Below the pieces are notes generated by a model that made no database searches, was not told the origin of the DNA, and was given only the letters and a program-made list of their open reading frames with translations. Position numbers and translations under genes: made by a program. A DNA stretch of 26,496 bases from a virus, in IMG/VR virus record IMGVR_UViG_3300028920_000242, positions 1 to 26,496 of that record. The stretch is one strand, 5' to 3'. Numbering within the stretch: the first letter of the stretch is position 1; each line of letters begins with the position of its first letter. Below, piece after piece: positions 1 to 26,496 of the stretch.

Positions 1-149
1 CGCGTCTCCAGGAACTGGGCGTAGTCGGGCGGGATCCCGATCTGCTGCCAGGTCATCCCCTCTTCGAGGATGGCGATGCGGTGGGCGTTGTCGAGCCCCT
101 TGTGCATCCGCTCCCAGCTCGCCCGGAGGTTGTCCCTCGCCTTCTCGTT
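1..149. repeat. Terminal direct repeat, left copy (circular overlap)
   Basis: These bases match 26348-26496 position for position except base 23 (a) versus base 26370 (c). The last 126 positions are identical. The repeat lies wholly inside the portal coding sequence and keeps its frame across the junction, so it most likely marks circularity or circular permutation of the assembled genome rather than a functional terminal repeat. The mismatch changes Tyr to Asp in the portal and suggests strain variation or a sequencing error. Confidence 0.95.
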
Positions 150-809
150 AAGAGCCTCGGGGTGCTGGAGAACGCCGCCGGGGCTGGCCCCGTTGCCAAA
201 GAAGGCCGCGCCGAACTCCTCGGCGGCCCGGCCGAGGCCGATGGCCTCGCGGTGCTGGCGGATCGGTGAAAGGCCCTGGTAGCCGTTCGAGCTGTAGGCC
301 TTGATGTGCAGGACGTCGGCGGGGTCCAGGACGACGCCGGAGCCGCCCTTGCGGTTCTTGACCTCATAGGTCAGGCGGTTGCCCTTCATCGCCGGCTCGA
401 CCAGGTCCGGGGCGAGGGGCCAGAGGTTCAGCGGCCGACCTGCCCCGTCGCGTTCGATCTCGGCGTAGCCGTTGCCCCAGGTCAGGACGTGGCCCTGGAG
501 GACCTGGCGGAAGGTCAGGGCGTCCATGTAGGGGTTCGCCTGCTCGCCCAGCAGCCGCCAGTTGCGATGCGTTCGGGCCCGGTCCTTCCCTCGCTCCATC
601 CGTCGGTAGACGACGAAGGGCAGCGAGGCCACCGACTGGCTGATGATGTTCACGGCGGCCCATACGGGCGAGTACTTCAAACCCGTCTCCGGCGTGACGG
701 ACACGCCCGAGCCGCTCCGCTCGCCGTGGACCCAGTCGATCAGCCACTGCGCGGGGTTGGCCACCCCGCTGCGTCGTTCGCCCTTGCTGAGTAGATCACA
801 GATCGCCAT
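1..809 (-). CDS. Portal protein (HK97 family), N-terminal 269 residues; gene continues at 26349
   Basis: The portal forms the dodecameric ring at the head vertex through which DNA is packaged and ejected. The ATG at 809-807 begins MAICDLLSKGERR and the frame stays open to base 1. Family hallmarks visible here are the segment SPVWAAVNIISQSVASLPF near residues 47-65, an aromatic patch GNGYAEIERDG around residue 113, and a helical region ending in NLRASWERMHKG. The gene starts 4 nt after the stop of a small membrane-protein gene and lies downstream of the large terminase, the usual order in HK97-like phages. Joined to 25474-26349 it gives a protein of about 560 residues, longer than typical HK97-family portals. 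The frame leaves the window at base 1 only because the circle was opened here. Confidence 0.93.
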   Translation of the reverse strand, partial: MAICDLLSKGERRSGVANPAQWLIDWVHGERSGSGVSVTPETGLKYSPVWAAVNIISQSVASLPFVVYRRMERGKDRARTHRNWRLLGEQANPYMDALTFRQVLQGHVLTWGNGYAEIERDGAGRPLNLWPLAPDLVEPAMKGNRLTYEVKNRKGGSGVVLDPADVLHIKAYSSNGYQGLSPIRQHREAIGLGRAAEEFGAAFFGNGASPGGVLQHPEALNEKARDNLRASWERMHKGLDNAHRIAILEEGMTWQQIGIPPDYAQFLET

Positions 810-813
810 TGCG

Positions 814-987
814 TTACCCGTTGGTCGCCAGGATGGCGTCGAGGTAGAGGCCCGCCCCGGCGGCGGTCAGCCCCACCGGCCAGCCGAGCCAGAAACCCAG
901 CCCCACGGCCAGTGCGGCCAGGCCGATCAACTGGATTAGGCCGGCTGCGCGGCGGGGATCGATGCCTGCTGCCACAAATCGCTCCAT
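814..987 (-). CDS. Small two-helix membrane protein ahead of portal
   Basis: A 57-residue protein starting MERFVAAGIDPRR, with two adjacent hydrophobic stretches (about residues 15-34 and 36-50) broken by the WPVG turn. It overlaps the 3' end of the nucleotidyltransferase/kinase fusion by about 50 nt and ends 4 nt before the portal start, so it looks translationally coupled to both. Very small hydrophobic genes next to portal genes occur in other siphophages, usually without a known role. The size and helix hairpin would also suit a holin-like function. The function is not known from sequence; the gene call rests on composition, fit between neighbours and tight spacing. Confidence 0.65.
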   Translation of the reverse strand: MERFVAAGIDPRRAAGLIQLIGLAALAVGLGFWLGWPVGLTAAGAGLYLDAILATNG

Positions 988-2069
988 CGCTCGTAGGGCT
1001 CGATCGCCACGGCCTCGGGCGAGCTGGCCACGAATTCGTCCCGGTCCTCGGGGTGGGCGAACAGGTAGAGGCCGTAGCCGCCCCAGCCCGCGCCGCAGTA
1101 CTTGCAGGCGAGCTCGCGTATGCTTGGTCGCAACGGGTCCATGCCCTCGGCGATCTGCGCCCGGTGCGAGAGGACGACGGCCTGGCTCAGCCGCTTCAGG
1201 TCTTCCCGGATCACCGCCTCGCGGGCGACGTCGCCCGCCCGGCGGATGGTGCCGTAGTCCCGATCGCGGCGCGTGAGGCCCGCGGTGACGTGTCGCTGCC
1301 CCGTCCACTCGATCGCCATGAGCCCCCGCAGCCAGCTCCCGGGCGTCTTGGTTTCCAGAGAGGGCATCAGCCCGGACCGCCAGACGCACAGGCCGGTTTC
1401 GCGGATCACCGCGGCGTCTTGCCAGCCGACGCCCTGCTCGATCTCGGCGTGGATTCCGTTGATGCCGTCTCGCATCGCGGCGGCGGCCGAGCCGCCGAGG
1501 CCCGACCCGTGCGGCCAGGCTCGCTCGTCGATGCCCGGGCGAACGGCGCAGTTCACCACGAAGGCGCCGCACTGGGCGAGGTCGGGGACGTCCAGCCAGC
1601 CGCCGGCGAAGTCCACCCGCATCGGGATCGTCACCCAGCCCCGGATACGGCGGCGGATCTCTGACACGGAGATCTTCGGATACTCCAGACCCTTCGGTAG
1701 GACGACGTAGCGGGCGCCGAACTCCGCACAGAGGTCCCGCTTCGCCTGGGCGTAACGGTCGTCCTCCGTGACGGCGAGGATGTCCGGGCGACGCGCCTTG
1801 AAGGCCTCGGCGAAGTCCAGGCCGGGCTCCGTCGGATGGCAGCTTGAGATCACCACCTCGTCGACGCAATCGAGGGCGGCCAGGACGTGGGCCTTGTGCT
1901 CGGCGGGCATGGCCGGCGGGCGGCCCTTGTGGCGCATCAGGGCCTCGTCGGAGGCCACCGACACCGTCAGCCAGTCGCCCAGGCTCTTCGCCTGGCGAAG
2001 GAAGTGCACGTGCCCGCCGTGCAGGACGTCGAAGCAGCCGCTCACAAAAACCTTGCTCACCTTGCTCAT
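936..2069 (-). CDS. Bifunctional sugar nucleotidyltransferase / GHMP sugar kinase fusion
   Basis: A 377-residue fusion. Residues 5-142 form a cytidylyltransferase-like domain: FDVLHGGH (13-20) holds the HxGH nucleotide-binding motif, and ISVSEIRRRI (133-142) is the C-terminal phosphate-binding motif, as in HldE/RfaE C-terminal and glycerol-3-phosphate cytidylyltransferases. From about residue 148 a GHMP kinase follows: RVDFAGGWLDVP (151-162) as in fucokinase and HddA, the ATP loop HGSGLGGSAAAA (187-198), and motif 3 CGAGWGGYGLYLF (325-337). Together they could phosphorylate a sugar and activate it as a nucleotide sugar in the cytoplasm; the sugar cannot be read from sequence. About 25 residues separate GHMP motifs 1 and 2, where cellular relatives have many more, so the kinase lobe is compacted. 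The start overlaps the terminase stop (TGATG), indicating coupled translation. This is a highly unusual cargo inside a packaging module. Confidence 0.88.
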   Translation of the reverse strand: MSKVSKVFVSGCFDVLHGGHVHFLRQAKSLGDWLTVSVASDEALMRHKGRPPAMPAEHKAHVLAALDCVDEVVISSCHPTEPGLDFAEAFKARRPDILAVTEDDRYAQAKRDLCAEFGARYVVLPKGLEYPKISVSEIRRRIRGWVTIPMRVDFAGGWLDVPDLAQCGAFVVNCAVRPGIDERAWPHGSGLGGSAAAAMRDGINGIHAEIEQGVGWQDAAVIRETGLCVWRSGLMPSLETKTPGSWLRGLMAIEWTGQRHVTAGLTRRDRDYGTIRRAGDVAREAVIREDLKRLSQAVVLSHRAQIAEGMDPLRPSIRELACKYCGAGWGGYGLYLFAHPEDRDEFVASSPEAVAIEPYERWSDLWQQASIPAAQPA

Positions 2070-3796
2070 CAGAGGGACATCAGCCCGCGATCTTCGTAGA
2101 CGCTCTTGCGGATCTCCGGCTGAACGATGGCCCGGCCGATGGCCATCACGAGGGCAACGATCCCGTCGATCCTTTCAGCACTGCGCTTCTTACTTGGTTT
2201 GATGTTCTCCGCACTGTCCAGCTCGACGGTCACGTTGGCGGCTTGCCAGCGGAGCATCGGGTTGCCGCCGTGGGCGAGCTGGCCGCCGACGACGAGCTTT
2301 TCGAGCGCCTTGGTCGGCGCCGACATGGACGCGAAGCCCTGGCCGAACGGCACGATCGTCAGCCCCTCGGCGGCGAGCAGTTGCTGCAGGTGCTCGCTGT
2401 TCCAACGGTCGACGGCGATCTCGCGGATGGCGTACCGCTGGGCGATCTGGCAGACGTCGGCCCGGATGCGGTCGTAATCGACGACGTTCCCGGGGGTCAG
2501 CGTCACCAGCCCTTGCCGCGACCAGGTCATGTAGGGGACGCGGTCGCGGCGTTCCCGCAGCGGGGCGTTGTCGGCGGGGACCCAATGCCAGGCCAGCACG
2601 GCATTGGTCTTCGGGAAGTACAAATCGAAGGCCGACAGGTCCCGCGTGCTGGACAGGTCCAGCCCGCCGAAGCATTCCTGTCCGACGAGCTCGTCGGGGT
2701 CGACGTCGCCCTCGCAGGCGTCCCACCGTTCCAGCGGCAGCCAGCGGGTCTCCTGCTGGGTCTTCACGTTCAAGTGGAGCCGCCGGAAGGTGTTTTCTCG
2801 TGCCGGCACCTCGCGGGCCTTTTGGCATTCTGCCGCGAGATGTTCCTTCGAGACGGACACGCCGAGGTTGGGGTTCGCCATCCGCCAGGCCTTCGGCTTC
2901 GTCCAATCGTCGTCGACGTCGACGCTGTAGATCACCGGCAGGAAGCTGGCATCCTCGATCACCCCATCCCGCACACGTTCGGCGTAGGCGAGGACCTCGT
3001 TGCAGATGGACTCTCGCTCGTGGTCGGCGGTGGTGATGTACAGGACGAGCGGCTGCGCCCGGGCGCCGGTGGAGGTCGTCAGCGTATCGACCAGCTCGCG
3101 GTCCTTCTGGACGTGCAGCTCGTCGATGACGACCAGATGGCTGTTGTAGCCGTGCTTGGTCCCGGCCTCGGCCGAGATCGACCGATAGGAGCTGTTCGTA
3201 TCGGTGAAGACGACGCTGTGCTGGAAGATCTCCGCTCGCCGCGTCAGCTCGGCGTCCTGGCGGATCATCTGCTTGACGATCTCGCGGACGATCGACGCCT
3301 GGTCGCGGTCGCCGGCGGCGGAGTAGATCTCGGCGCCCGGCTCGCCGTCGCAGAAACCGACCAGGCAGACGATCCCGGCGGCGAGGGTCGTCTTGCCGTT
3401 TTTGCGGGGCACGTAGACGAGGCATTCGCGGTAGCGACGGAGCCCGTCGGGCCGTTTCCAGCCGAACAGGTTGCCGACGATCGCCTGCTGCCAGCGTTCG
3501 AGCTTGAGCGGCTGGCCGGCCTGTCGGCCCTTGACGTGGGTCAGGCACTCGTTGAAGAAGTCCACGGCTCGCCGTGCGGCGTCCGGATCCCAGTGGCAAT
3601 CTCCCGCGGTGGCCCAGGGATCGTAGCCTGGGATCTTCGTGCGGCAGATGGTTCGCAGTGACGTCGGCGCCTTTTGGCGTTTCGTCGCCCGTTTCGTCCG
3701 CCTTGCCGGCCGCGACGCGGCCCGCTTGGGCTTAGCCGGAGCCTTTGCCGAAGAACCTCGTCTTGGTGTCCGTGTCGTCTTCTGCGGCGTCGGCAT
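2069..3796 (-). CDS. terL: Terminase large subunit (HK97-like ATPase-nuclease)
   Basis: This is the DNA-packaging motor, which hydrolyses ATP to pump DNA through the portal and cuts concatemers. Of 575 residues, the first ~45 are a Lys/Arg/Ala/Pro-rich tail. The ATPase has Walker A VPRKNGKTT (129-137) and Walker B LVVIDE (221-226). The C-terminal nuclease starts with GGLDLSSTRD (377-386), whose Asp residues would bind metal, and closes with RIDGIVALVMAIGRA near residues 545-560. The ATG at 3796 overlaps the small terminase gene by 65 nt. No other ATG occurs before the conserved part, so the basic tail is probably real, though the start has only a weak ribosome-binding site. The stop shares a base with the fusion gene start at 2069. 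Confidence 0.95.
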   Translation of the reverse strand: MPTPQKTTRTPRRGSSAKAPAKPKRAASRPARRTKRATKRQKAPTSLRTICRTKIPGYDPWATAGDCHWDPDAARRAVDFFNECLTHVKGRQAGQPLKLERWQQAIVGNLFGWKRPDGLRRYRECLVYVPRKNGKTTLAAGIVCLVGFCDGEPGAEIYSAAGDRDQASIVREIVKQMIRQDAELTRRAEIFQHSVVFTDTNSSYRSISAEAGTKHGYNSHLVVIDELHVQKDRELVDTLTTSTGARAQPLVLYITTADHERESICNEVLAYAERVRDGVIEDASFLPVIYSVDVDDDWTKPKAWRMANPNLGVSVSKEHLAAECQKAREVPARENTFRRLHLNVKTQQETRWLPLERWDACEGDVDPDELVGQECFGGLDLSSTRDLSAFDLYFPKTNAVLAWHWVPADNAPLRERRDRVPYMTWSRQGLVTLTPGNVVDYDRIRADVCQIAQRYAIREIAVDRWNSEHLQQLLAAEGLTIVPFGQGFASMSAPTKALEKLVVGGQLAHGGNPMLRWQAANVTVELDSAENIKPSKKRSAERIDGIVALVMAIGRAIVQPEIRKSVYEDRGLMSL

Positions 3797-4196
3797 GGAG
3801 TCCCACGCGATCGGCCGGGCTCAGCCCGAGCTTCGCCCCGGTCCGCAGCATGGCCTGGAGGGCTTGTTCGGCGGTGATCTCGACTCGCCTCCGCTCGGCC
3901 GAGCCCCGGGGCATGCCCTTGCCGCCCCTTCTCAGGACCGACAGAGCCCCGAGCCAGTCGCTGTAGGCCTGGCAGTACCCTGCGATGACCCCCTCATCGG
4001 CCAGCGTCAGCACGCCCATGGCCTCGAGGACCGGCAGGAGCCGATCCCAGGTCCGCTTTGCCCGGGCATCGAGTCCTCGGGGCTGCTGGGGTCGACCCGG
4101 CGGGGCCTTCGGTTCGCCCTTCCGTTTCTTCGCTCTCCAGGATCCCCGGAGCTTCAGGATCGGCGTCGGCGTCGGTTGTGGACCTCGTTTCCCCAT
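3732..4196 (-). CDS. terS: Terminase small subunit (P27 family)
   Basis: A 154-residue protein beginning MGKRGPQPTPTPILKLRGSW, the RGPxPxPT...LRG signature of P27-type small terminases, which recognise the packaging site and recruit the large subunit. The middle (about 50-110) is helical and ends with the common 'E..LG..P..R' segment (KLGLSPADRVGL). It sits between the HNH nuclease (stop 69 nt upstream of its start) and the large terminase, whose start overlaps its 3' end by 65 nt. The order HNH - TerS - TerL - portal is typical of HNH-dependent cos or headful packaging systems. Confidence 0.92.
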   Translation of the reverse strand: MGKRGPQPTPTPILKLRGSWRAKKRKGEPKAPPGRPQQPRGLDARAKRTWDRLLPVLEAMGVLTLADEGVIAGYCQAYSDWLGALSVLRRGGKGMPRGSAERRRVEITAEQALQAMLRTGAKLGLSPADRVGLHADAAEDDTDTKTRFFGKGSG

Positions 4197-4264
4197 CGTC
4201 TGGTCGCCCCAGCTATCTCGTGCCCGGAAACCCGTGCAAAAAAACGCGCGTTTGCCACCCCGGT

Positions 4265-4639
4265 CTACAGCGGGCGATTTTCAGCTATTTTGACCCCTAT
4301 CCCCCGCTCGGCCATCGTCTTGCGGCTGTGGCATCGATGGCAGAGGGCTTGGAGGTTGCTCTCGTCGTTACTGCCGCCTCGGGCAAGCGGTACGATGTGA
4401 TCTACGTCGGTTGCCGCTTCAACGATCCCCTGGCTCTCGCATTCGACACAGAGAGGATGTCGCCGCAGGAACCACGTCCGGAGGCGGCGCCAGTCCCGAT
4501 CGTAGCCTCGCCGAGCGGAGCTCAGTCGTCCCTCGTCCTCGGTCTTCGCTACGACCACGGCGTGGCGCGGGCAGTACGGTCCATCGCACAGCTCGCCACA
4601 GCCCGGCCAGCGACACGGTGTCCTCAATGCGGTTGGCAT
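4265..4639 (-). CDS. HNH endonuclease of the packaging module
   Basis: A 124-residue protein. An N-terminal Cys cluster (C9, C14, C18, C23) is followed by a classic HNH fold: PLCVEC (62-67) and CHRCH (100-104) supply the zinc-binding Cys pairs, and the catalytic DVDHIVPLARGG segment (78-89), with Asn95 in NDESNLQALC, gives the beta-beta-alpha metal site. In HK97-like phages an HNH protein encoded just upstream of the terminase genes stimulates terminase cleavage. Its start shares a base with the stop of the upstream structural gene (TGATG at 4641-4637), so the two are probably coupled. Confidence 0.92.
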   Translation of the reverse strand: MPTALRTPCRWPGCGELCDGPYCPRHAVVVAKTEDEGRLSSARRGYDRDWRRLRTWFLRRHPLCVECESQGIVEAATDVDHIVPLARGGSNDESNLQALCHRCHSRKTMAERGIGVKIAENRPL

Positions 4640-5481
4640 CAGGCCGGGTTGCCCGTCTGGCCCTTATGTACGGTCAGCGTGCCGACGGCCAGCTTATGGT
4701 GCCGGCTGTTGGCGTCGGTCACGTCGAACTCGTACCGGTAATGCTCCGTGTCCCTCGGCGGGTGCATGTTCAGGGCGGCTGTCTCCGTGTCGGTGAGCTC
4801 CACCTTGAGCGTCACGGTCGTGCCGTCCTGGCTCACGCTGCCGGCCTTCTTGAAATCGGCCGCCACCGTCGTGCCGCCCTCGAAGGCCGGTTGGTTCAGG
4901 AGCCGGAAGACACACGTCGCGGCGGCCAGGCTGGGGCCCGTGTAGTCGGTGATCGTCTCGGTCAGGGCCAGGCCATCGGCGTCGGCGTAGTCGCCTCCGG
5001 CGTAGATCTCGAATTCGCCCTCCTCGGCCACGGGTGCGCTGTAGGTCACGCTGATCGATCCGATCTGAGACACCTTCGTGAGGATCGTCGCGCGGTCGGT
5101 CGTGCTGCCGCCCCACTGGCTGACGTCCACCTGCAGCTTGTCGCTGCCATACAGGGAATCAAAGACGTTCGCCGGCAGCACGACGAAGTCCTTCCACACC
5201 GGCAGACAGACGTCCTCATCCGCAACGAACACCGTCAGCCGCCCCGTGGTCTCCGTGTCCGTGGTGGAGAGGCCGAGCGTGTACATGCCGCCGGCCTTGT
5301 GCGTCCATCCGTTACCGGAGATGTCGACGAACGTGGTGCCATCGTGCTTCATCAGCTCGGCAGAATCGGCCGCGCCGAGGGTCACCCCCGTCTCGCCGGT
5401 GACGCCGTCGGACTTGTCCACGAAGGTCCCGACCAGGACGGTGGCCGTCGTGCTTTGTCTCAGGGGCTGGCTCACGCGCAC
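4639..5481 (-). CDS. Virion structural protein, BppU-like beta-rich
   Basis: A 280-residue protein of two beta-rich halves. The first half (1-115) has the pattern VGTFVDKSDGVTGETGVTL ... LSTTDTETTGRLTVFVAD ... PVWKDFVVLPANVFDSL, familiar from tail or baseplate proteins such as BppU-type N-terminal domains and many metagenomic phages. The second half, after a short LQVDVSQWGG linker, has FEIYAGGDYADADG and a closing HYRYEFDVTD ... LAVGTLTVHKG, which suggests an immunoglobulin-like sandwich. It probably forms part of an adsorption structure with the adjacent lectin-like protein. The start overlaps the lectin gene's end by 10 nt. The family is recognised only by pattern and the receptor is unknown. 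Confidence 0.7.
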   Translation of the reverse strand: MRVSQPLRQSTTATVLVGTFVDKSDGVTGETGVTLGAADSAELMKHDGTTFVDISGNGWTHKAGGMYTLGLSTTDTETTGRLTVFVADEDVCLPVWKDFVVLPANVFDSLYGSDKLQVDVSQWGGSTTDRATILTKVSQIGSISVTYSAPVAEEGEFEIYAGGDYADADGLALTETITDYTGPSLAAATCVFRLLNQPAFEGGTTVAADFKKAGSVSQDGTTVTLKVELTDTETAALNMHPPRDTEHYRYEFDVTDANSRHHKLAVGTLTVHKGQTGNPA

Positions 5482-6170
5482 CTCAGTTGGGTGTAGTGGT
5501 GCATGAAGACGGGAATGCTCGTCGGCATCGGCACGTCGGCCAACACATCACCCATCATGATGTAGTCCAGATACATCGTCGCATAGAAGGCGTCCGGGTT
5601 GGAGAACCCGGCCCAGAGCGCGTTGAGCGACATGGCGCTTCCGCCGTGCCCCGAATCCACCGCCTGACAGACCTGCGCCCCGTCCATGTAGACCGTCGCC
5701 GTAGCGGCCGATGCGCCTGCGACGTAGGTGATCTGGACCCAATACCAGGTGTCTATGGCAATCGGCGTGGACGACCACGAGAACCCCGTCCAACTCCCGT
5801 CGTCGCCCCTGCATCGGACGCCAAATTGAAGGTCGCTGCCGCTCTTGCGGATGTCAACGTGAACGCGCCCCGATGTCCCCTGGAGCATGTAGAACGCCCG
5901 CACATCCTCGCCATCGTCCCAGCCGATCCCTCCGTCGAGCCGGAACCACATCCCGACGGCCATCGTGTTTGTGAAGCTGTAGTCCGTCTGCTTGGCGTAG
6001 GCGTCGTCGTCGCTCGATCCGGCCACATCGCAGGCGAGATAGTACGTCCCCTCGATGCGCACCCCGACCGCAGACCCAACGGCCACAGAGCCGCCGTTGT
6101 TGGCAACTTGTGACGACCAGCCATCGGGCCAGGAACCCGTCTCGTGGTCTATGGTCGCGCGGAGCGCCAT
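5472..6170 (-). CDS. LamG/concanavalin A-like lectin protein, probable receptor-binding component
   Basis: A 232-residue protein with a single jelly-roll lectin fold pattern: FTNTMAVGMWFRLDGG, then FYMLQGTSGRVHVDIRKSG, DTWYWVQITYVAGAS and TATVYMDGAQVCQ, ending with a beta strand MYLDYIMMGD. This is the usual LamG/laminin G order (a 'W.H..V.Y.....ATVYVDG' core followed by 'LDDI..G'). There is no signal peptide. In phages such domains often sit in fibres or tips that bind glycans. A good ribosome-binding site (GGGAGG, 6 nt from the ATG) supports the start, which lies 22 nt inside the PEP-CTERM gene end. It could also be a carbohydrate-binding capsid ornament. Confidence 0.75.
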   Translation of the reverse strand: MALRATIDHETGSWPDGWSSQVANNGGSVAVGSAVGVRIEGTYYLACDVAGSSDDDAYAKQTDYSFTNTMAVGMWFRLDGGIGWDDGEDVRAFYMLQGTSGRVHVDIRKSGSDLQFGVRCRGDDGSWTGFSWSSTPIAIDTWYWVQITYVAGASAATATVYMDGAQVCQAVDSGHGGSAMSLNALWAGFSNPDAFYATMYLDYIMMGDVLADVPMPTSIPVFMHHYTQLRCA

Positions 6171-6811
6171 CTAGGCCTCCCCAAGAACACCAACCCGCCC
6201 AGCAGCAGCATCGCCGTCGCCGGTTCGGGAATCGGGCGGGGGTCGGTGTCGTACAGCCAGTAGTTGCCCACGTCGGCCTCGATTTCGGCTTCGGCCGGGG
6301 AATGAAAGAGCTTGGCGTCCTCGCCACGAACCATCAGGCCATGCAGCCAGTAAATTCCCGCCGGGACAACGCCTTCGTAATAGATGTTGTCGTCGTTGGA
6401 GTTATCCTCGGGCGTGGGGTCGGCCTCAACATGAGGCGCCCAGGTCAGATCGGCATAGAGAACGTGCCCGCAGACGTACTTCGTCCCGCCGATCCACTGC
6501 ACCATCTCCGGGCCACGATCTGCCCACGGGTTCAGGTCGGCGTAGCCGAAGACGTTTACCGGGTTGTCGCCCGTCCACGTCGGTTTGAAGCGGATGCCGG
6601 TGAGGTCCGTAGCGCCACGGCGGTTGTCGATGACGCCCAGCATGGCGACGTACTTGACCCCGTTCGGGTCGCGGAGGGTGTTGCCGTCGCGGTCCAGTTC
6701 GGCGGCGTCGATGTAGTCGTTCTCCCGTCCGGCCGGCAGAGTCGCCGCCAAGCTGCTCGCCGTCACCGCAAGCAGCACCAGCCCCGTCAGCCCTTTGATG
6801 CTCGTTCTCAT
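6149..6811 (-). CDS. PEP-CTERM secreted protein, phage-encoded exosortase substrate
   Basis: A 220-residue protein with an N-terminal signal peptide (charged MRTSIKG, hydrophobic LTGLVLLAVTASSLA, likely cleavage after SLAA). The C-terminal sorting tail is textbook: PIPEPATAMLLLGGLVFLG followed by an Arg cluster (RPRWRSARP), which is PEP box, transmembrane helix, basic end. Cellular exosortases recognise such tails, cut near the PEP box and release or anchor the protein at the envelope, usually in bacteria that make exopolysaccharide. The middle domain (about 30-190) is not recognised; it is acidic and rich in Asp, Tyr and Trp. The ribosome-binding site AAAGGAG lies 7 nt before the ATG. It is the first gene of the late operon, next to the lectin gene. 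No exosortase gene is present, so a host enzyme would be needed. Confidence 0.85.
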   Translation of the reverse strand: MRTSIKGLTGLVLLAVTASSLAATLPAGRENDYIDAAELDRDGNTLRDPNGVKYVAMLGVIDNRRGATDLTGIRFKPTWTGDNPVNVFGYADLNPWADRGPEMVQWIGGTKYVCGHVLYADLTWAPHVEADPTPEDNSNDDNIYYEGVVPAGIYWLHGLMVRGEDAKLFHSPAEAEIEADVGNYWLYDTDPRPIPEPATAMLLLGGLVFLGRPRWRSARP

Positions 6812-6847
6812 GGTCGTCTCCTTTCGAGAGTGGCGTTCACCATCGAG

Positions 6848-19662: not shown

Positions 19663-20241
19663 TTATCGGTAGTCCCGGATGCCTTCGACGGCCAGCAGGC
19701 TTCGCACGCCCATGGGCAGAACGCTGGCCGCCTGGCCCACAAGGGTCGCCTCGCGGTGCTCGTAGAGGTGGCCGACGGCCAGGAGGATCGCCTGGCGGTC
19801 CGTCGCGGGGACGTCCGCCGCCTCGTCGCCGTAGCCGGCGACGTAGATGATTTCGACGTCGTTGACCTCGCCGTAGGTGCTCGGCCACGTCTGTTGGTAG
19901 GCCAGGCTGACCGCGCCGGGCTCGGCCGCCGTGTCGACGTAGTAGGTCGCCGCCGCGAGCGTCTGCTGGGCGTTGTTGCCGTCCTGGTACTTGATCGACG
20001 TCACCGACTGCAGCGGCGGACGGGGCAAATAGAGCTTGCCGGTCCAGAACCCGTCGCGATACATCGTCCAGGTCTGCTCGATGAACGCCCGGCCGGCGAG
20101 CTGCTCGCACTGCTGGCGGGCGGCGGTGATCAGCCGGTCGACCAGGTCGTCCTCGTCGTAGCTGTCGAGGCGCAGATGCAGCTTCGCCTCGGCCCGGGTG
20201 ACGGGCTCCGTCGCGGCGTCGGTTGTGCGGGACAGTTTCAT
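19663..20241 (-). CDS. Head-tail connector (gp6-like)
   Basis: A 192-residue protein: VTRAEAKLHLRLDSYDEDDL, then RLITAARQQCEQLAGRAFIE and QTWTMYRDGFW, matching HK97 gp6-like and phage_connect proteins ('s..eaKahLRld...eDd.l..lI.aAr.~~e..tgRali'). It forms the ring under the portal. The ATG at 20241 shares a base with the upstream stop (TGATG); a GTG one codon earlier is also in frame. Confidence 0.92.
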   Translation of the reverse strand: MKLSRTTDAATEPVTRAEAKLHLRLDSYDEDDLVDRLITAARQQCEQLAGRAFIEQTWTMYRDGFWTGKLYLPRPPLQSVTSIKYQDGNNAQQTLAAATYYVDTAAEPGAVSLAYQQTWPSTYGEVNDVEIIYVAGYGDEAADVPATDRQAILLAVGHLYEHREATLVGQAASVLPMGVRSLLAVEGIRDYR

Positions 20242-20501
20242 CACGTCGTCTTGCGGCGGCCCGCCTGCCGCTTCCGGGGCTTGCCGACCGGTCGGGCCGC
20301 CTGCTCGGCCGACGGCTCGGCCGTGGTCGTTTCGACGGCCGGGGCCTGCTCGGGTGCGGGCTGGGGCCGCTTGCCGTCGTCGGCCGCCTCCGCGACGCCC
20401 CGACCGATCAGGTCGCGGCCGAAGCTCTCTTGCCCGGGCTTGAGGGTCAGCAGGTGACCCGTCGGGTAGCCTGCATAGTTCGCGAGGAAGCGTATCTTCA
20501 T
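20241..20501 (-). CDS. Small head-associated protein, unknown
   Basis: An 86-residue protein. The N-terminus MKIRFLANYAGYPTGHLLTL, followed by 'GRDLIGRGVAEAAD', matches small proteins often found between capsid and connector genes ('mkvr.l..~~gy..Gdvv.lp...A..Li.rG.a'). A Pro/Ala/Glu/Thr-rich tail and a basic end RKRQAGRRKTT follow. AGGAGA lies 5 nt before the ATG. The role is not known. Confidence 0.75.
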   Translation of the reverse strand: MKIRFLANYAGYPTGHLLTLKPGQESFGRDLIGRGVAEAADDGKRPQPAPEQAPAVETTTAEPSAEQAARPVGKPRKRQAGRRKTT

Positions 20502-20528: not shown

Positions 20529-21818
20529 CTACTGCCAGGCGTCCTTGGGTTTACCGTTCTCCCAGAAGTCTTTGGGCGTCTGCCAGACGGCCTTCGCCTC
20601 CGGACCCGGCCGGCCCGGCCATCCGATCATCAGCTCGGCGTGGCCGATCACCACGCGGGGGGCCAGGTAGAGGGTGTTGCCGAGCTTATGCCACCACCGC
20701 CAGAACCAGATGTCGTCATCGACCCGCCCCTCGTCCCAGCGGCCGTCGGGGCCCGGGCGGCTGTGAAACCACGGCTTCTTCATCGCCTTGAGCTTCTCCG
20801 TCCGGATCAGCGTCAGGCCGAAGTGCGCCGTCGTCACCTGTAGAAGCTCCTGCTGCAACTCCTCCATGGCGACCTTGTCGCGGTTCTTCCCGTCGTCGCC
20901 CTGGATGGTCATCATCGGATAGGGCGTGTGACGGTGGATCTGGACCGGGGCCAGGGCATCGATCTCCGGGTGAGCGGCGAACAGCTCGCAAAGCCGGCGG
21001 ACGTCGTCCACGGTGAAGACGCTGTCGTAGTCGAGCGTCAGGATCGCCCCGGCACCCTCCTCGACCGTCTGCTCCATGCCACGCTCGAGGCATTGCCCCC
21101 AGAACGCCCCAGAAACCTTCTTGAGCCCGATCTTCAGCGGAAGAAAGGCCTGGAAGGCCGCGAAGAAGTTGTCCTGGAAGCCCAGCCGCGGAATGCTCAT
21201 CACCGCCGAGACATGCAGATCATCGCGCGGCCCGTAGGTGGTCGGCTTCGGGGCCGAGGCCGGCTGGACCACTGGAAACGCCGGCTGGCCGTGCATGCTC
21301 ATCGGCTTGCGGCCCTGGAGGTTCAGGCTGATCGGCAGGCTCGCACAGTCGCCGACCTCCGTGGTCCACGGCTCGATCTGCTCGAGCCCCGCCGCCTCCA
21401 GGAGGCCGCGGAGCTTCTGCTCGTTGAAGATCGATCGGTGGAAGTCGTCCTCGTCGCCCTGGCCGCCCATCAGCCACGCCTCGATCGGATCGTCGTGCCC
21501 TGGCTCATGGTATCGCTTGACGATCGCGGTGAAGTTTGGCACGGCGATCCGCAGCAGCCCGCCCGGCTCGAGCGCCCGGATCCAGTCACAGAGGATCTCG
21601 GGCGTCCGCTGGTGGCTGAAATGCTCCAGCAGGTGGCTGGCGCGGATCTCGGCCACCGAATCGTCGGGGTACTTTAGCGGCACCGCCTCGCCGCCTCGCC
21701 GGTGATCCACGGCCACGTAGCCGGGGATGTGCGAGATCCCCGACCCGAGATTCAGCTTCAGAGGTTTTGCGGCGCTGTCGTCGCCGTCCGCGCGTAGCCC
21801 AACCTTTCCATCGCCCAT
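20529..21818 (-). CDS. Methyltransferase-glycosyltransferase fusion
   Basis: A 429-residue protein with two domains. Residues ~20-165 form a SAM-dependent methyltransferase of the class 11 type: LNLGSGISHIPGYVAVDHR (22-40), EIRASHLLEHF (57-67) and LEPGGLLRIAVPNF (83-96). Residues ~195-429 look like a GT-A-type glycosyltransferase: SAVMSIPRLGF, LTLDYDSVFT (260-269; DxD-type D263/D265), and later VDDDIWFWRWWH with IGHAELMIGWPG. The ATG at 21818 is chosen for GGGAGA 7 nt upstream; the frame is open further upstream. It overlaps the sulfotransferase end by 61 nt. It could add and methylate a sugar on a capsid, decoration or surface glycan, but acceptor and donor are unknown. Confidence 0.85.
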   Translation of the reverse strand: MGDGKVGLRADGDDSAAKPLKLNLGSGISHIPGYVAVDHRRGGEAVPLKYPDDSVAEIRASHLLEHFSHQRTPEILCDWIRALEPGGLLRIAVPNFTAIVKRYHEPGHDDPIEAWLMGGQGDEDDFHRSIFNEQKLRGLLEAAGLEQIEPWTTEVGDCASLPISLNLQGRKPMSMHGQPAFPVVQPASAPKPTTYGPRDDLHVSAVMSIPRLGFQDNFFAAFQAFLPLKIGLKKVSGAFWGQCLERGMEQTVEEGAGAILTLDYDSVFTVDDVRRLCELFAAHPEIDALAPVQIHRHTPYPMMTIQGDDGKNRDKVAMEELQQELLQVTTAHFGLTLIRTEKLKAMKKPWFHSRPGPDGRWDEGRVDDDIWFWRWWHKLGNTLYLAPRVVIGHAELMIGWPGRPGPEAKAVWQTPKDFWENGKPKDAWQ

Positions 21819-22423
21819 CCATGTATCTCCCAAAAGCGTGCCTCGTCCTCGGCACTCATTTCGTGCCGCCACGTCCCGATCCGCCCTTTGCGGAAGATCT
21901 TCGGGACCAGACGGCGGAAGCGATCGAAGTCGTTGCGCCAGTCCGTGCGGACGGGCGGCCCCAGTGTCTTTGCCATCTCACCGATCGCCCAGCCGGGCCG
22001 CTCGAGCAAGTCCTCGTAGCGTACAAGCAGCGTATTCGGCCGGCCGCCCGGCCAGGGCGCCCAGCGGGCGACGTGTTCCGCCCACCGCTGCCAGCTCGGC
22101 AGACCGTCGATCACGTAGCGGACGGGCCGGTTGTACATCGCCGCCATCGAGCAGCAGGCGTCCCGACCGTCCCGGACCACGTAGATCGCGGGACGGTCGT
22201 CGCCCTCGATCGGCCACCGGTGGGTCTTGACCACGGCGCCAGGCAGATGGAACCGCATCGTGATGCCGGGCACCGGCGGGTTGACGTAGGCCCTCCGGTT
22301 GGGCAGCAGCCCGTCCAGCATCGGCTCGTTGTAGATCGACGGGCAGTCGCGGTCCCAGCAATGCTGGATGATGAGCCGCGCGAGGGTGTTGCCGCTCCGC
22401 GGCCAACTTGCCAGCCAGATCAC
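21758..22423 (-). CDS. PAPS-dependent sulfotransferase
   Basis: A 221-residue enzyme with the core motifs of sulfotransferases: WPRSGNT (7-13, the 5'-phosphosulfate loop), VKTHRW (65-70, catalytic His region), YVVRDGRDACCS (81-92, 3'-phosphate binding), VRYEDLLERP and RKGRIGTWRHEM (178-189). It would transfer sulfate from PAPS to a hydroxyl on an acceptor in the cytoplasm. It starts at GTG (22423), 2 nt after the decoration-type gene, and is followed by the methyltransferase-glycosyltransferase fusion. No sulfotransferase is expected in a head-morphogenesis module. The acceptor cannot be read from sequence. Confidence 0.88.
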   Translation of the reverse strand: MIWLASWPRSGNTLARLIIQHCWDRDCPSIYNEPMLDGLLPNRRAYVNPPVPGITMRFHLPGAVVKTHRWPIEGDDRPAIYVVRDGRDACCSMAAMYNRPVRYVIDGLPSWQRWAEHVARWAPWPGGRPNTLLVRYEDLLERPGWAIGEMAKTLGPPVRTDWRNDFDRFRRLVPKIFRKGRIGTWRHEMSAEDEARFWEIHGWAMERLGYARTATTAPQNL

Positions 22424-22425
22424 GG

Positions 22426-22857
22426 CTACAGGTTCACCAGGGCCTTGACGCCTGCGATCGTGGTGTTGATCGCGCCCTCGTCGCCTCGGAAGAGGTTGGC
22501 GATCGCGACGATGCCCTGCGTGGTGAGCGGGGTGACCACGACGCGGAGGTACCGCTTCCGCCCGCGGCAGTCGACGTTGAACTTCACCCCGTAGTTGCCC
22601 TCGGTGAGGGCGGCCGGGACGTCGAAGTCCGTGTCACCCACCGCGCCGGAGATGTCGGCGAAGCTGGTGGCGACGGTCGTGTCGCACTCCTGCAGCTTGA
22701 GCGTGCTGGGGTTGTTGGTGGCATCGTCCGAGGTCGTCATCACGACGTCGATCGTCGCGAAGTCGAAGCCGAGAGTATCGATGTTGCCGGTCGCGGTCTC
22801 GCCGTTGGTGACCTCGATGTCGTTGATCGCGACCACTTGCTTTCCGTAAGGAACCAT
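22426..22857 (-). CDS. Probable head decoration or capsid-associated protein
   Basis: A 143-residue protein beginning MVPYGKQVVAINDIEVTNGE with a repeated beta-strand layout (TIDVVMTTSDDATNNPSTLK, DVPAALTEGNYGVKFNVDCR) and a short C-terminal helix (AIANLFRGDEGAINTTIAG). It directly follows the capsid gene in order, where decoration or stabilisation proteins are normally encoded. A long intergenic region with hairpins separates the two. It would be a natural surface-exposed target for the sugar-modifying genes that follow; this is an inference. Confidence 0.65.
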   Translation of the reverse strand: MVPYGKQVVAINDIEVTNGETATGNIDTLGFDFATIDVVMTTSDDATNNPSTLKLQECDTTVATSFADISGAVGDTDFDVPAALTEGNYGVKFNVDCRGRKRYLRVVVTPLTTQGIVAIANLFRGDEGAINTTIAGVKALVNL

Positions 22858-23151: not shown

Positions 23152-24501
23152 TCAGGAGGTATTGCCGCGGAGGCCGACCAGCGGGCCGGCCGTCGAGGCG
23201 TCGCCGAGGTCGTGGACGTTGATGTCCATCCGCTCCGTCATCTGCACGCCGATCTGGTCGTACTCGAGGTACCGATCCGTGCTGGTACGGAGCGTGATGC
23301 CCCGCCGATCGCCGAGATCGGCCGCCTGCCGCATGTTGCCGAAGGCGATCATCACGAGCTCGTTGTACGCGCTCGTCGCGGACGGCATCGCCGCCGACAG
23401 CTTGATCGGGTAGCCGAGCAACTGCGGCGTCATGCCGTCGGCGATGTTCTGCATCGCATTGCCGGACAGGGCGCTCAGCAGCCGCAGGACGCAGGAGCCG
23501 TAGGCGTAGTACGACATGTACCACTTGGCGTTGAAGTGGGCGTAGCCGGGCAGCTTGCCCACCAGCGAAATGATGTCCGGCAGCAGCAGCTCGGTGAACT
23601 GATCGTCGCCGGCCGTCGCGTCGGCGTAGCTGGCGGCGTGATTGCCGTCCACCATCTTCGCCCGGAATCCCACGATTCCGTGGTAGGTCGACGTGCCGTC
23701 ACCGTCGATCAGGCACTCGTCCTCTTTCTTCACGGCCGCCCAGGCCATCTCATCGGCCAGGTCGTCGGCCATGTTGATGATGGCGTCGTCGGCGAGATCG
23801 GTGCTCATCCGGGTCAACGCCCCCCACTTGCGGGCGACGAGCTCGACGTTCGACCAGCTCTTGTCGGAGGCCGTGATCTCCGTGTTCTCGCCGATGGCGT
23901 ACATCGTGATCCCGCCCGCTCGCCTGGGCACCAGGAGGTTGTCCGAGCCCATGGGTCGGATCCGGCACTCCTGCCGGGCGAGGCCGTACTCCTCGCGCAA
24001 GTCGATAATGGCCGACTCGAGCTCGACGGGCACCACGTAGCCGCCTGCCGCGTTCTTACCGGTCGTCATCACCCGCAGCTCGATGTTGTTCTCACGGCAC
24101 CAGTCGCGGGCCTGCTGGTTGCCGAGAATGGCCGCCCGGAACCACTGGCCGGCACGGTAGGCGTCCTCATCGGCACGCGCCCCCTTGAAGGCGCGGAGCC
24201 GACTGTAGCGGAACCGCTGCGGTCGCCGCTCCTGGCGGCTGCCGTCCGTCCGACTGATCCAGTCCGGGTCGGAGGGCACGGATCGCCCGGACGTTCCGTC
24301 CATCAGGCCCTTGGCGTCTTCGAGCTGCTGACGCCGGCTGATCTCGTCCGTCAACGTCTTGAACTCGGTCATCAGCTCTGCGTAGCGGTTGGCCTCGTCG
24401 TCGTCCAGGCGACGACTTTCCTCATCGGCCTTGGCGTACAGCTCGTTGGCCGCCTGGTAGGCGGCCAGTCGACGAGCCCTCAATTCCTCGATCGTGGTCA
24501 T
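23152..24501 (-). CDS. Major capsid protein (HK97 fold)
   Basis: A 449-residue protein. The N-terminal ~100 residues form a charged coiled coil (MTTIEELRARRLAAYQAANE and on), the delta/scaffold-like domain that HK97 proteases cut. The core begins near TTGKNAAGGYVVPVELESAI and includes MGSDNLLVPRRAGG, WSNVELVARKWGALTRMSTD and LIDGDGTSTYHGIVG (P-domain and E-loop-type segments), then LLGYPIKLSAAMPS near the C-terminus. It assembles as the icosahedral shell. The ATG at 24501 starts the coiled coil cleanly; the frame is open 32 codons further. The upstream protease gene and the downstream decoration-type gene fit the order. Confidence 0.93.
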   Translation of the reverse strand: MTTIEELRARRLAAYQAANELYAKADEESRRLDDDEANRYAELMTEFKTLTDEISRRQQLEDAKGLMDGTSGRSVPSDPDWISRTDGSRQERRPQRFRYSRLRAFKGARADEDAYRAGQWFRAAILGNQQARDWCRENNIELRVMTTGKNAAGGYVVPVELESAIIDLREEYGLARQECRIRPMGSDNLLVPRRAGGITMYAIGENTEITASDKSWSNVELVARKWGALTRMSTDLADDAIINMADDLADEMAWAAVKKEDECLIDGDGTSTYHGIVGFRAKMVDGNHAASYADATAGDDQFTELLLPDIISLVGKLPGYAHFNAKWYMSYYAYGSCVLRLLSALSGNAMQNIADGMTPQLLGYPIKLSAAMPSATSAYNELVMIAFGNMRQAADLGDRRGITLRTSTDRYLEYDQIGVQMTERMDINVHDLGDASTAGPLVGLRGNTS

Positions 24502-24637
24502 TTCTTTCACCCGTGAACTGTCGCGACCCGTGCCTCCGTCGCCGAACAACGGCTCAGCGGCGGCGAGTTCGCCTGGTTGTGTGGAAGCTCTGCTCACCAG
24601 CCGACGACGGCCGAGCGGCGAGCGTCGTTGTGCGTGC

Positions 24638-25473: not shown

Positions 25474-26496
25474 TTATCGGTGCGCAAGCAGGCATGCAGG
25501 CGCCCGCGCCACCTCGGCCACGGTGTTCATCACGTGATCGGCGAGTTGAGCGGGACGCGAGAGCTGCCATTCGGCCAGGACCCGCTCGGGCTGGGGCCCG
25601 TCGGCCAGGGCTCGCCGCGCGGCGTTCGCCTCGTGGATCGCCAGTTGGGCCATCGCGGCCACCACCGCCGCCCGGGTCTCGGCCGCCCGCAGACCGATGG
25701 CCTCGGCGTAGGCCCTCGCCGCCGGGGTCAGCACCTCGGCCACGTGCGCGGCGTGGTTGCCGTTGCCGTAGAACCGCTCGACCGCCTTGCAAAAGTCCTG
25801 CCGCTTCGCGGCGGTTCGCATGGCGTTGATCTCTTTGGTAACGATGCGGCGGGCAAGCTCGACGAGCAGCTCCCGGTGGGCCCGGCCGTCCGGTTTGTCG
25901 GCAGGGCTGTCGGACGTATCGTCGTCATCGTCCTCGTCCGGGTCCGGCGGCCCTGGCGGCAAGGCGGTCGGCCGGTCGGCCGGGGCCATGTTCACCGGCA
26001 CCCAGTACCGATCGCCCCCGGCAATCGGGTTGAGATTCTCTTTCTCGCGAATCTCGTTGGCCGACAGGACACCCAGGTTCCACAGCTCGCGGTAGAACTG
26101 CCCGCGGGCCCGGCTGTCGCCCCGCAGCAGCCCTTCGACGAGGAACTCGCCAAAGAAGTTCGTGCTCCATGGCCCGAACAGCTTCCGGTTGCATTCGAGC
26201 TCCCATCGGCGGAGCCAGGGCATCAGTGTGTGCCGCACGAAGTCGATCGACTGGTGCTCGATGTTCGAGAAGGTCGCCCGCTCCAGGTCGCCCAGCATGT
26301 GCGGCGGGATCTGGTAGATGCGGGCCACCTCGGTCACCTGGAACTTCCGCGTCTCCAGGAACTGGGCGTCGTCGGGCGGGATCCCGATCTGCTGCCAGGT
26401 CATCCCCTCTTCGAGGATGGCGATGCGGTGGGCGTTGTCGAGCCCCTTGTGCATCCGCTCCCAGCTCGCCCGGAGGTTGTCCCTCGCCTTCTCGTT
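25474..26496 (-). CDS. Portal protein (HK97 family), C-terminal part
   Basis: This is the rest of the portal gene that starts at 809. The first 149 bases duplicate 1-149, and the protein then continues to a TAA at 25474-25476. Conserved portal features include RKFQVTEVARIYQIPPHMLG, the following TFSNIEHQSIDFVRHTLMPW, and the clip/stem segment GVLSANEIREKENLNPI. After about residue 400 there is an acidic stretch (DPDEDDDDD), and then about 150 residues of Ala-rich helix not found in minimal portals. That extension could be a scaffold-like or core-binding domain, which is my inference. The prohead protease gene follows after 17 nt with its own strong ribosome-binding site. Confidence 0.93.
   Translation of the reverse strand, partial: NEKARDNLRASWERMHKGLDNAHRIAILEEGMTWQQIGIPPDDAQFLETRKFQVTEVARIYQIPPHMLGDLERATFSNIEHQSIDFVRHTLMPWLRRWELECNRKLFGPWSTNFFGEFLVEGLLRGDSRARGQFYRELWNLGVLSANEIREKENLNPIAGGDRYWVPVNMAPADRPTALPPGPPDPDEDDDDDTSDSPADKPDGRAHRELLVELARRIVTKEINAMRTAAKRQDFCKAVERFYGNGNHAAHVAEVLTPAARAYAEAIGLRAAETRAAVVAAMAQLAIHEANAARRALADGPQPERVLAEWQLSRPAQLADHVMNTVAEVARAPACLLAHR
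26348..26496. repeat. Terminal direct repeat, right copy (circular overlap)
   Basis: Second copy of bases 1-149, with one mismatch at 26370. Removing one copy gives a 26,347-bp circle in which the portal gene is intact. Confidence 0.95.

Follow-up and report, generated by a model that had tools for sequence, protein, structure and literature searches.

Gene content of the window

The window, i.e. the whole stretch of 26,496 nucleotides that was analysed, begins and ends with a 149-bp direct repeat (1-149 and 26348-26496; one mismatch between the copies). The genome, about 26.3 kb long, is probably complete in this record. Because the record ends, which share this repeat, fall inside the portal gene, that gene is split in two parts. 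The late operon runs in the order terminase small subunit (TerS), terminase large subunit (TerL), fusion gene, 57-aa ORF, portal, protease, capsid, 143-aa protein, sulfotransferase, methyltransferase-like/GT-A glycosyltransferase, head-tail adaptor and neck genes. The features concerned are the following:

3-809, minus strand: portal, N-terminal part, clustering with the portals of L009, L014, L111 and L134
814-987: membrane-type ORF of 57 aa that separates the fusion from the portal and overlaps, out of frame, with the end of the fusion gene
936-2069, minus strand: fusion ORF of 377 aa, HxGH nucleotidyltransferase plus compact GHMP (putatively fucokinase-type) kinase
2069-3796, minus strand: TerL (phrog_9, E 4e-171; Pfam TerL_nuclease/TerL_ATPase)
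3732-4196, minus strand: TerS (Pfam Terminase_4, phrog_83)
19663-20244, minus strand: head-tail adaptor (phrog_442, E 6e-30)
20529-21872, minus strand: methyltransferase-like protein plus GT-A glycosyltransferase with an invariant DYD (GT-A fold at residues 196-397, Z 15-18)
21758-22423, minus strand: sulfotransferase in the capsid-neck interval (Pfam Sulfotransfer_1, E 1.8e-9)
22426-22857, minus strand: conserved capsid-adjacent protein of 143 aa, a candidate decoration protein (phrog_5707) that also flanks the glycosyltransferase gene in 61 of 80 relatives of the latter
23152-24597, minus strand: major capsid protein (Pfam Phage_capsid, phrog_10)
25474-26454, minus strand: portal, C-terminal part (phrog_12, E 1.7e-63)

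A secreted protein encoded at 6149-6811 has a putative PEP-CTERM sorting signal (Pfam E 0.0017, below the cut-off), hinting at an exosortase-bearing host.

A nucleotidyltransferase fused to a compact GHMP kinase

The fusion ORF starts at an ATG (2069-2067) that shares bases with the TGA stop codon of TerL, in agreement with the translational coupling described in an earlier note on this DNA. The position between TerL and portal given there is correct as to the two neighbours (TerL phrog_9, portal phrog_12), except that the 57-aa ORF intervenes before the portal. The note had also described an HxGH nucleotidyltransferase domain joined to a GHMP kinase with all three of its motifs, and these could be located as listed below; equivalent residues are those of FKP, the L-fucokinase/GDP-fucose pyrophosphorylase of Bacteroides fragilis (PDB 9iip, 9iit, 5yys).

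2067-2071, minus strand: TGATG, overlap of the fusion start with the TerL stop
1644-2069, minus strand: nucleotidyltransferase domain, residues 1-142 (Pfam CTP_transf_like; VIA-align Z 17-18.6 to 3glv, 1coz and 5xf2)
2010-2021, minus strand: HGGH (HxGH) motif, residues 17-20; H17, G19 and H20 invariant in 48 of 48 relatives
939-1643, minus strand: GHMP kinase domain, residues 143-377, with a folded core that ends near residue 361 (VIA-align; no Pfam match)
1584-1619, minus strand: GHMP motif 1, residues 151-162, RVDFAGGWLDVP; R151, W158 and D160 equivalent to FKP R592, W599 and D601
1482-1502, minus strand: GHMP motif 2, GLGGSAA, residues 190-196 (context GSGLGGSAA)
1416-1427, minus strand: GWQD, residues 215-218; Q217 and D218 equivalent to FKP Q761 and the catalytic base D762
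1074-1103, minus strand: GHMP motif 3, KYCGAGWGGY, residues 323-332

Motif 1 can also be given as PMRVDFAGGWLDVP. All three GHMP motifs are kept across 48 relatives, and the catalytic D218 is invariant. Judging from its full-length relatives, which are 42-55% identical to the window protein, and from the 45 invariant columns among the 48 sequences, the fusion is far beyond what chance would produce.

The Pfam model CTP_transf_like (PF01467) matches residues 9-141 (E 6.7e-14; 52.7 bits against a cut-off of 21), as well as the corresponding half of all 48 family members. No Pfam GHMP model matched the kinase half of any of the 48 members at E<=0.01, and the assignment of this half therefore needed structure. 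An AlphaFold model built from an 18-sequence alignment (mean pLDDT 86) supports an intact nucleotidyltransferase fold followed by an intact GHMP kinase fold. In VIA-align comparisons, residues 3-142 matched the HxGH enzymes 3glv (Z 18.6), TagD (1coz, Z 17.3) and HldC (5xf2, Z 17.3), and residues 142-361 matched GHMP kinases at Z of about 20 across 203-217 residues, with an rmsd of 2.3-2.7 Å (mevalonate kinase 8teb, 20.6; galactokinase 2cz9, 20.3; heptokinase WcbL 4usk, 20.1; FKP fucokinase 9iip, 18.8). Membership of the GHMP kinase superfamily is thus carried by the modelled fold and the motifs, despite the lack of a Pfam match. No degenerate site was seen in either half except for a single T-to-V change at residue 135 in the ISTT motif, where the window copy has Val and 44 of the 48 sequences have Thr. 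The relatives show no broken frame. The kinase is unusually compact compared with FKP, that is, motifs 1 and 2 are separated by about 37 residues, versus about 105 in Verrucomicrobiota FKPs, so that about 70 residues are missing. In other GHMP kinases this region helps to line the nucleotide pocket.

Distribution and phylogeny of the family

Two subfamilies were distinguished, a main one (F1) and a second, divergent one (F2). About 30 distinct contigs of uncultured phages carry full-length relatives at roughly 50% identity; 19 viral-contig loci were found, then 41 in a later search, the latter including five F2 loci, one match to the nucleotidyltransferase alone and some near-duplicates. Among cultured phages and plasmids, only the nucleotidyltransferase half was matched, over at most 41% of the query. 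Bacterial genomes yielded relatives in at least 375 stretches, the best 80 of which were read. They belong chiefly to Verrucomicrobiota, and also to Planctomycetota, Myxococcota, Bacteroidota, Fibrobacterota and Patescibacteria. The fusion is therefore not the phage peculiarity that it had appeared to be, the family being widespread in bacteria. Literature searches for a fucokinase with cytidylyltransferase and GHMP, or for Verrucomicrobia with GDP-fucose and fucokinase, returned nothing matching.

A single clade of 73 rows (support 99) contains most of the host copies in the phylogenetic tree. The siphophage copies, that of the window among them, are placed outside this clade on long branches, and the tree needs only five label changes. 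Phage copies thus look old rather than recently acquired from the sampled hosts, although such long branches are hard to place. Several Akkermansia-sized genomes have two copies of the fusion.

An optional cargo of phage head genes

Among relatives of the window TerL, the gap between TerL and portal is at most 139 bases in 18 of 19 measurable cases, and none of these relatives has a fusion gene or a remnant of one. Since the two genes are adjacent in these relatives, the fusion gene must be an insertion. L134 has an F2 fusion in the same slot and L205 an F1 fusion, making three phages with the window included, and the TerL of L205 is of another family (phrog_2 versus phrog_9 in the window). 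In other siphophages the fusion lies between the capsid block and the head-tail adaptor/neck genes, often beside the same methyltransferase/GT-A gene. The fusion is therefore an optional cargo in phages, and its presence in a head-packaging cluster, for which the earlier note knew of no other case, recurs in L134 and L205 and, within the head-neck module, in several more. The TerL/portal junction of L224 holds other cargo (4229-5748), with ORFs that by eye resemble ParB-type and DNA methyltransferase proteins, and both TerL (1242-3893) and portal (4092-6842) of L142 seem to hold large intein-like inserts.

The glycosyltransferase that the fusion had been expected to serve, encoded elsewhere in the operon, corresponds to the GT-A protein at 20529-21872, which lies in the same structural operon. 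The model of this protein has low confidence overall (pLDDT 61), and the GT-A domain alone was used. Hundreds of contigs of uncultured phages have this gene next to that of the capsid (74 of 80 relatives in uncultured phages), and it had no match in 50,697 cultured phage records. A strong association between fusion and glycosyltransferase was not found, the fusion query matching in 4 of 80 glycosyltransferase loci, one of them in the nucleotidyltransferase half only. GT11 fucosyltransferases are encoded 7-10 kb from the fusion in two pairs of phage contigs (L002/L101 and L006/L104), and also by L007. By Pfam, GT11 occurs in 3 of 33 fusion-bearing virus records, and a GT11 query matches 102 of the 50,697 cultured phage records, the methods differing between the two counts. 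In the window phage, GDP-mannose 4,6-dehydratase (GMD), GDP-fucose synthase and other fucose genes were not seen among the ORFs, and a Pfam search gave no GT11. A sulfotransferase related to that of the window is carried by L167. The capsids of mycobacteriophages Che8 and Rita are described as glycosylated by phage-encoded glycosyltransferases (cited in PMC11256854), a precedent for such modification; the window phage also appears to carry a sugar-activating enzyme.

Genomic context in bacteria

In many Akkermansiaceae and Verrucomicrobiaceae, GMD and GDP-L-fucose synthase are encoded just upstream of the fusion in polysaccharide clusters that also encode a WecG-type glycosyltransferase, UDP-glucose dehydrogenase, APS kinase and CysD. 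This linkage is concentrated in one bacterial lineage. Elsewhere, GDP-fucose synthase lies near the fusion in a Fibrobacteres bin, the gene order at L137 is GMD, F2 fusion, GDP-fucose synthase, and the gene next to the fusion in a Rhodothermales genome (L025) encodes a GH95 fucosidase (E 3e-147). Canonical FKP lies near GDP-fucose synthase on the same contig in G026, G046 and G131, as does F1 in G005 and F2 in G089 and G107.

Among 145 evenly sampled Verrucomicrobiota genomes, F1 was present in 28, F2 in 12 and canonical FKP in 21, with zero overlap (hypergeometric P 6e-4, uncorrected for phylogeny). A GH29 fucosidase was found in 27 of the 28 F1 genomes versus 79 of the 117 others (P 7e-4, uncorrected for shared ancestry). 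Co-occurrence of the fusion with GDP-fucose synthase was not above background in these genomes (about 20/28 versus 68/117). Canonical FKP was found in none of the 64 genomes of host loci, and in a Bacteroidota sample it was above the cut-off in just 2 of 198 genomes, the fusion being present in five, numbers too small to bear on mutual exclusion in that phylum. In Verrucomicrobiota and other bacteria the fusion seems to replace canonical FKP, an enzyme of nearly three times its size; the mutual exclusion may partly reflect phylogeny.

Kinase residues suggest fucose as the probable sugar

The kinase of B. fragilis FKP uses Asp762 as catalytic base and Arg592 to stabilise the leaving group; fucose is stacked against Trp599, and its hydroxyls are bound by Asp601, Thr602 and Gln761. 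The substitutions W599A and D601A reduce kcat/Km by a factor of more than 3000 (PMC11982464). HMMER aligned FKP 588-619 (SPVRIDMAGGWTDTP) with window residues 147-178, and FKP 751-762 (EQLLTTGGGWQD) with the GWQD region. FKP R592, W599, D601, Q761 and D762 are in register with R151, W158, D160, Q217 and D218, all invariant in 48 of 48 sequences. E209, which probably corresponds to FKP Glu751, is likewise invariant in all 48. The position of Thr602, which contacts the C3 hydroxyl, is occupied by Val in 47 of the 48 and by Ile in one (Gln in F2), so the pocket is not identical to that of FKP. With both folds intact, the earlier proposal of a sugar-activating enzyme is consistent with the sequence sugar plus ATP to sugar-1-phosphate to NDP-sugar; of the fucose and heptose enzymes that it named as known examples, the former are the closer, the kinase signature being that of the fucokinase FKP and not that of a heptokinase. 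The sugar is best read as L-fucose, judging from these residues, the profile matches to FKP, the neighbouring genes and the mutual exclusion with FKP.

The enzyme could instead take another free sugar near L-fucose, such as L-galactose, D-arabinose or a modified 6-deoxysugar, and convert it to a CDP-, ADP- or GDP-sugar for an unusual glycan. The usual nucleotide of HxGH enzymes is CTP or ATP, not GTP, which would fit such a product. The replacement of the Thr602 contact by Val in F1 and Gln in F2 points the same way, and FKP itself tolerates variation at C5 (PMC11982464). The GDP-fucose synthase, GH95 and GT11 neighbours nevertheless suggest fucose itself, and we regard a different sugar as rather unlikely.

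Searches of the PDB with kinase-only profiles returned FKP as the best match of both subfamilies, at E 4e-5 with F1 and at a stronger E 7e-10 with F2. With hhalign, F1 matched three Verrucomicrobiota FKPs with a probability of 74% (E 3e-5), the values being 95% for F2 versus FKP and 97% for F1 versus F2. The heptose kinases HddA (3k85, E 2e-4) and WcbL (4usk, E 8e-4) followed closely in the F1 search, and WcbL is also among the top structural matches. This could suggest heptose activation, in which the kinase would act on heptose-7-phosphate (as in HddA/WcbL) and the HxGH domain would make ADP- or GDP-heptose (as in HldE/HldC), the nucleotidyltransferase half matching HldC/RfaE models and PHROG 7878. 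The fucokinase stacking Trp is, however, invariant in the family, whereas 3k85 has GGGSD in place of the GGW motif, with Gly at the Trp position; the neighbours found are fucose genes; and the likeness of the nucleotidyltransferase half is to the entire HxGH class, the fusion remaining far below the cut-offs of the HldE/RfaE equivalog models (71.3 versus 181.5 bits for TIGR02199 and 59.8 versus 521 bits for NF008454). Heptose is therefore an improbable substrate. Very improbable is a catalytically weakened or moonlighting passenger with no role in glycosylation: the window copy does sit on a long branch with its one ISTT substitution, and TerL relatives manage without it, but an intact frame and the retention of all invariant residues across deep divergence imply selection on activity.

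Comparison with known systems and proposed function

FKP and the fusion have the same domain order, an N-terminal nucleotidyltransferase and a C-terminal GHMP kinase, and share the kinase fold, the five residues in register and the genomic link to GDP-fucose synthase. The fusion, at about 360-380 aa, has about 40% of the length of FKP (949 aa). The nucleotidyltransferase of FKP is of the NTP_transferase/beta-helix type (PF07959), for which a Pfam search of the 48 members gave no match, whereas that of the fusion is an unrelated, Rossmann-type HxGH domain (PF01467). The fusion is therefore an analogue of FKP and not a member of its family. HddA and WcbL share the GHMP fold, and TagD (glycerol-3-phosphate cytidylyltransferase) and HldC that of the N-terminal half, but these are stand-alone enzymes. 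HldE (RfaE), a heptose kinase/adenylyltransferase, likewise joins an HxGH nucleotidyltransferase to a sugar kinase; its kinase is PfkB-type and N-terminal, in contrast to the C-terminal GHMP kinase of the fusion.

The established features, namely both folds, the conservation of catalytic and sugar-binding residues, the distribution of the family and its gene context, suggest that the fusion is most likely a previously unrecognised enzyme, common in Verrucomicrobiota and other bacteria, that would convert a free L-fucose-type sugar to a nucleotide sugar. We favour, as the probable reading, a compact bifunctional kinase/nucleotidyltransferase for L-fucose or a close L-galacto sugar, feeding the phage GT-A glycosyltransferase. 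That is, the C-terminal kinase would use ATP to phosphorylate the anomeric hydroxyl of L-fucose, or of a near relative with the L-galacto configuration, with D218 as base, R151 stabilising the transition state, and W158, D160 and Q217 holding the sugar. The N-terminal HxGH domain would then react the resulting sugar-1-phosphate with an NTP to form NDP-L-fucose, releasing PPi. The activity, the identity of the sugar, the choice among GTP, CTP and ATP, and the acceptor are our inferences. In the phage, the fusion would be a cargo at the TerL/portal junction, translated from the late structural operon, and its donor sugar would go to the GT-A glycosyltransferase encoded between the capsid and neck genes; the sulfotransferase in the same interval would perhaps sulfate the product, and the end use would be decoration of virion proteins or host glycans. 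A more far-reaching version is doubtful but worth stating: the fusion would be a miniature FKP, a third and independently assembled enzyme leading from free fucose to GDP-L-fucose, whose HxGH domain uses GTP, common to Verrucomicrobiota and their phages, and the phages would fucosylate, and perhaps sulfate, their own capsids.

The compact L-fucose-type kinase/nucleotidyltransferase favoured here gives a candidate function to a large family, the kinase half of which Pfam misses and whose members would otherwise be annotated only as adenylyl- or cytidylyltransferases. If true, Akkermansia-type and other Verrucomicrobiota without FKP could reuse fucose freed by their own fucosidases. So compact a sugar-activation enzyme also suggests that some phages may bring their own activation step for glycosylating virions or host glycans.

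Separate HxGH nucleotidyltransferase genes accompany some of the fusions. In four Verrucomicrobiota genomes (G150, G118, G019 and G082) a stand-alone gene of this type lies within about 120 bases after the fusion, and in a T4-like fusion-bearing contig (L016:7461-7898) another lies 0.6 kb downstream of it.
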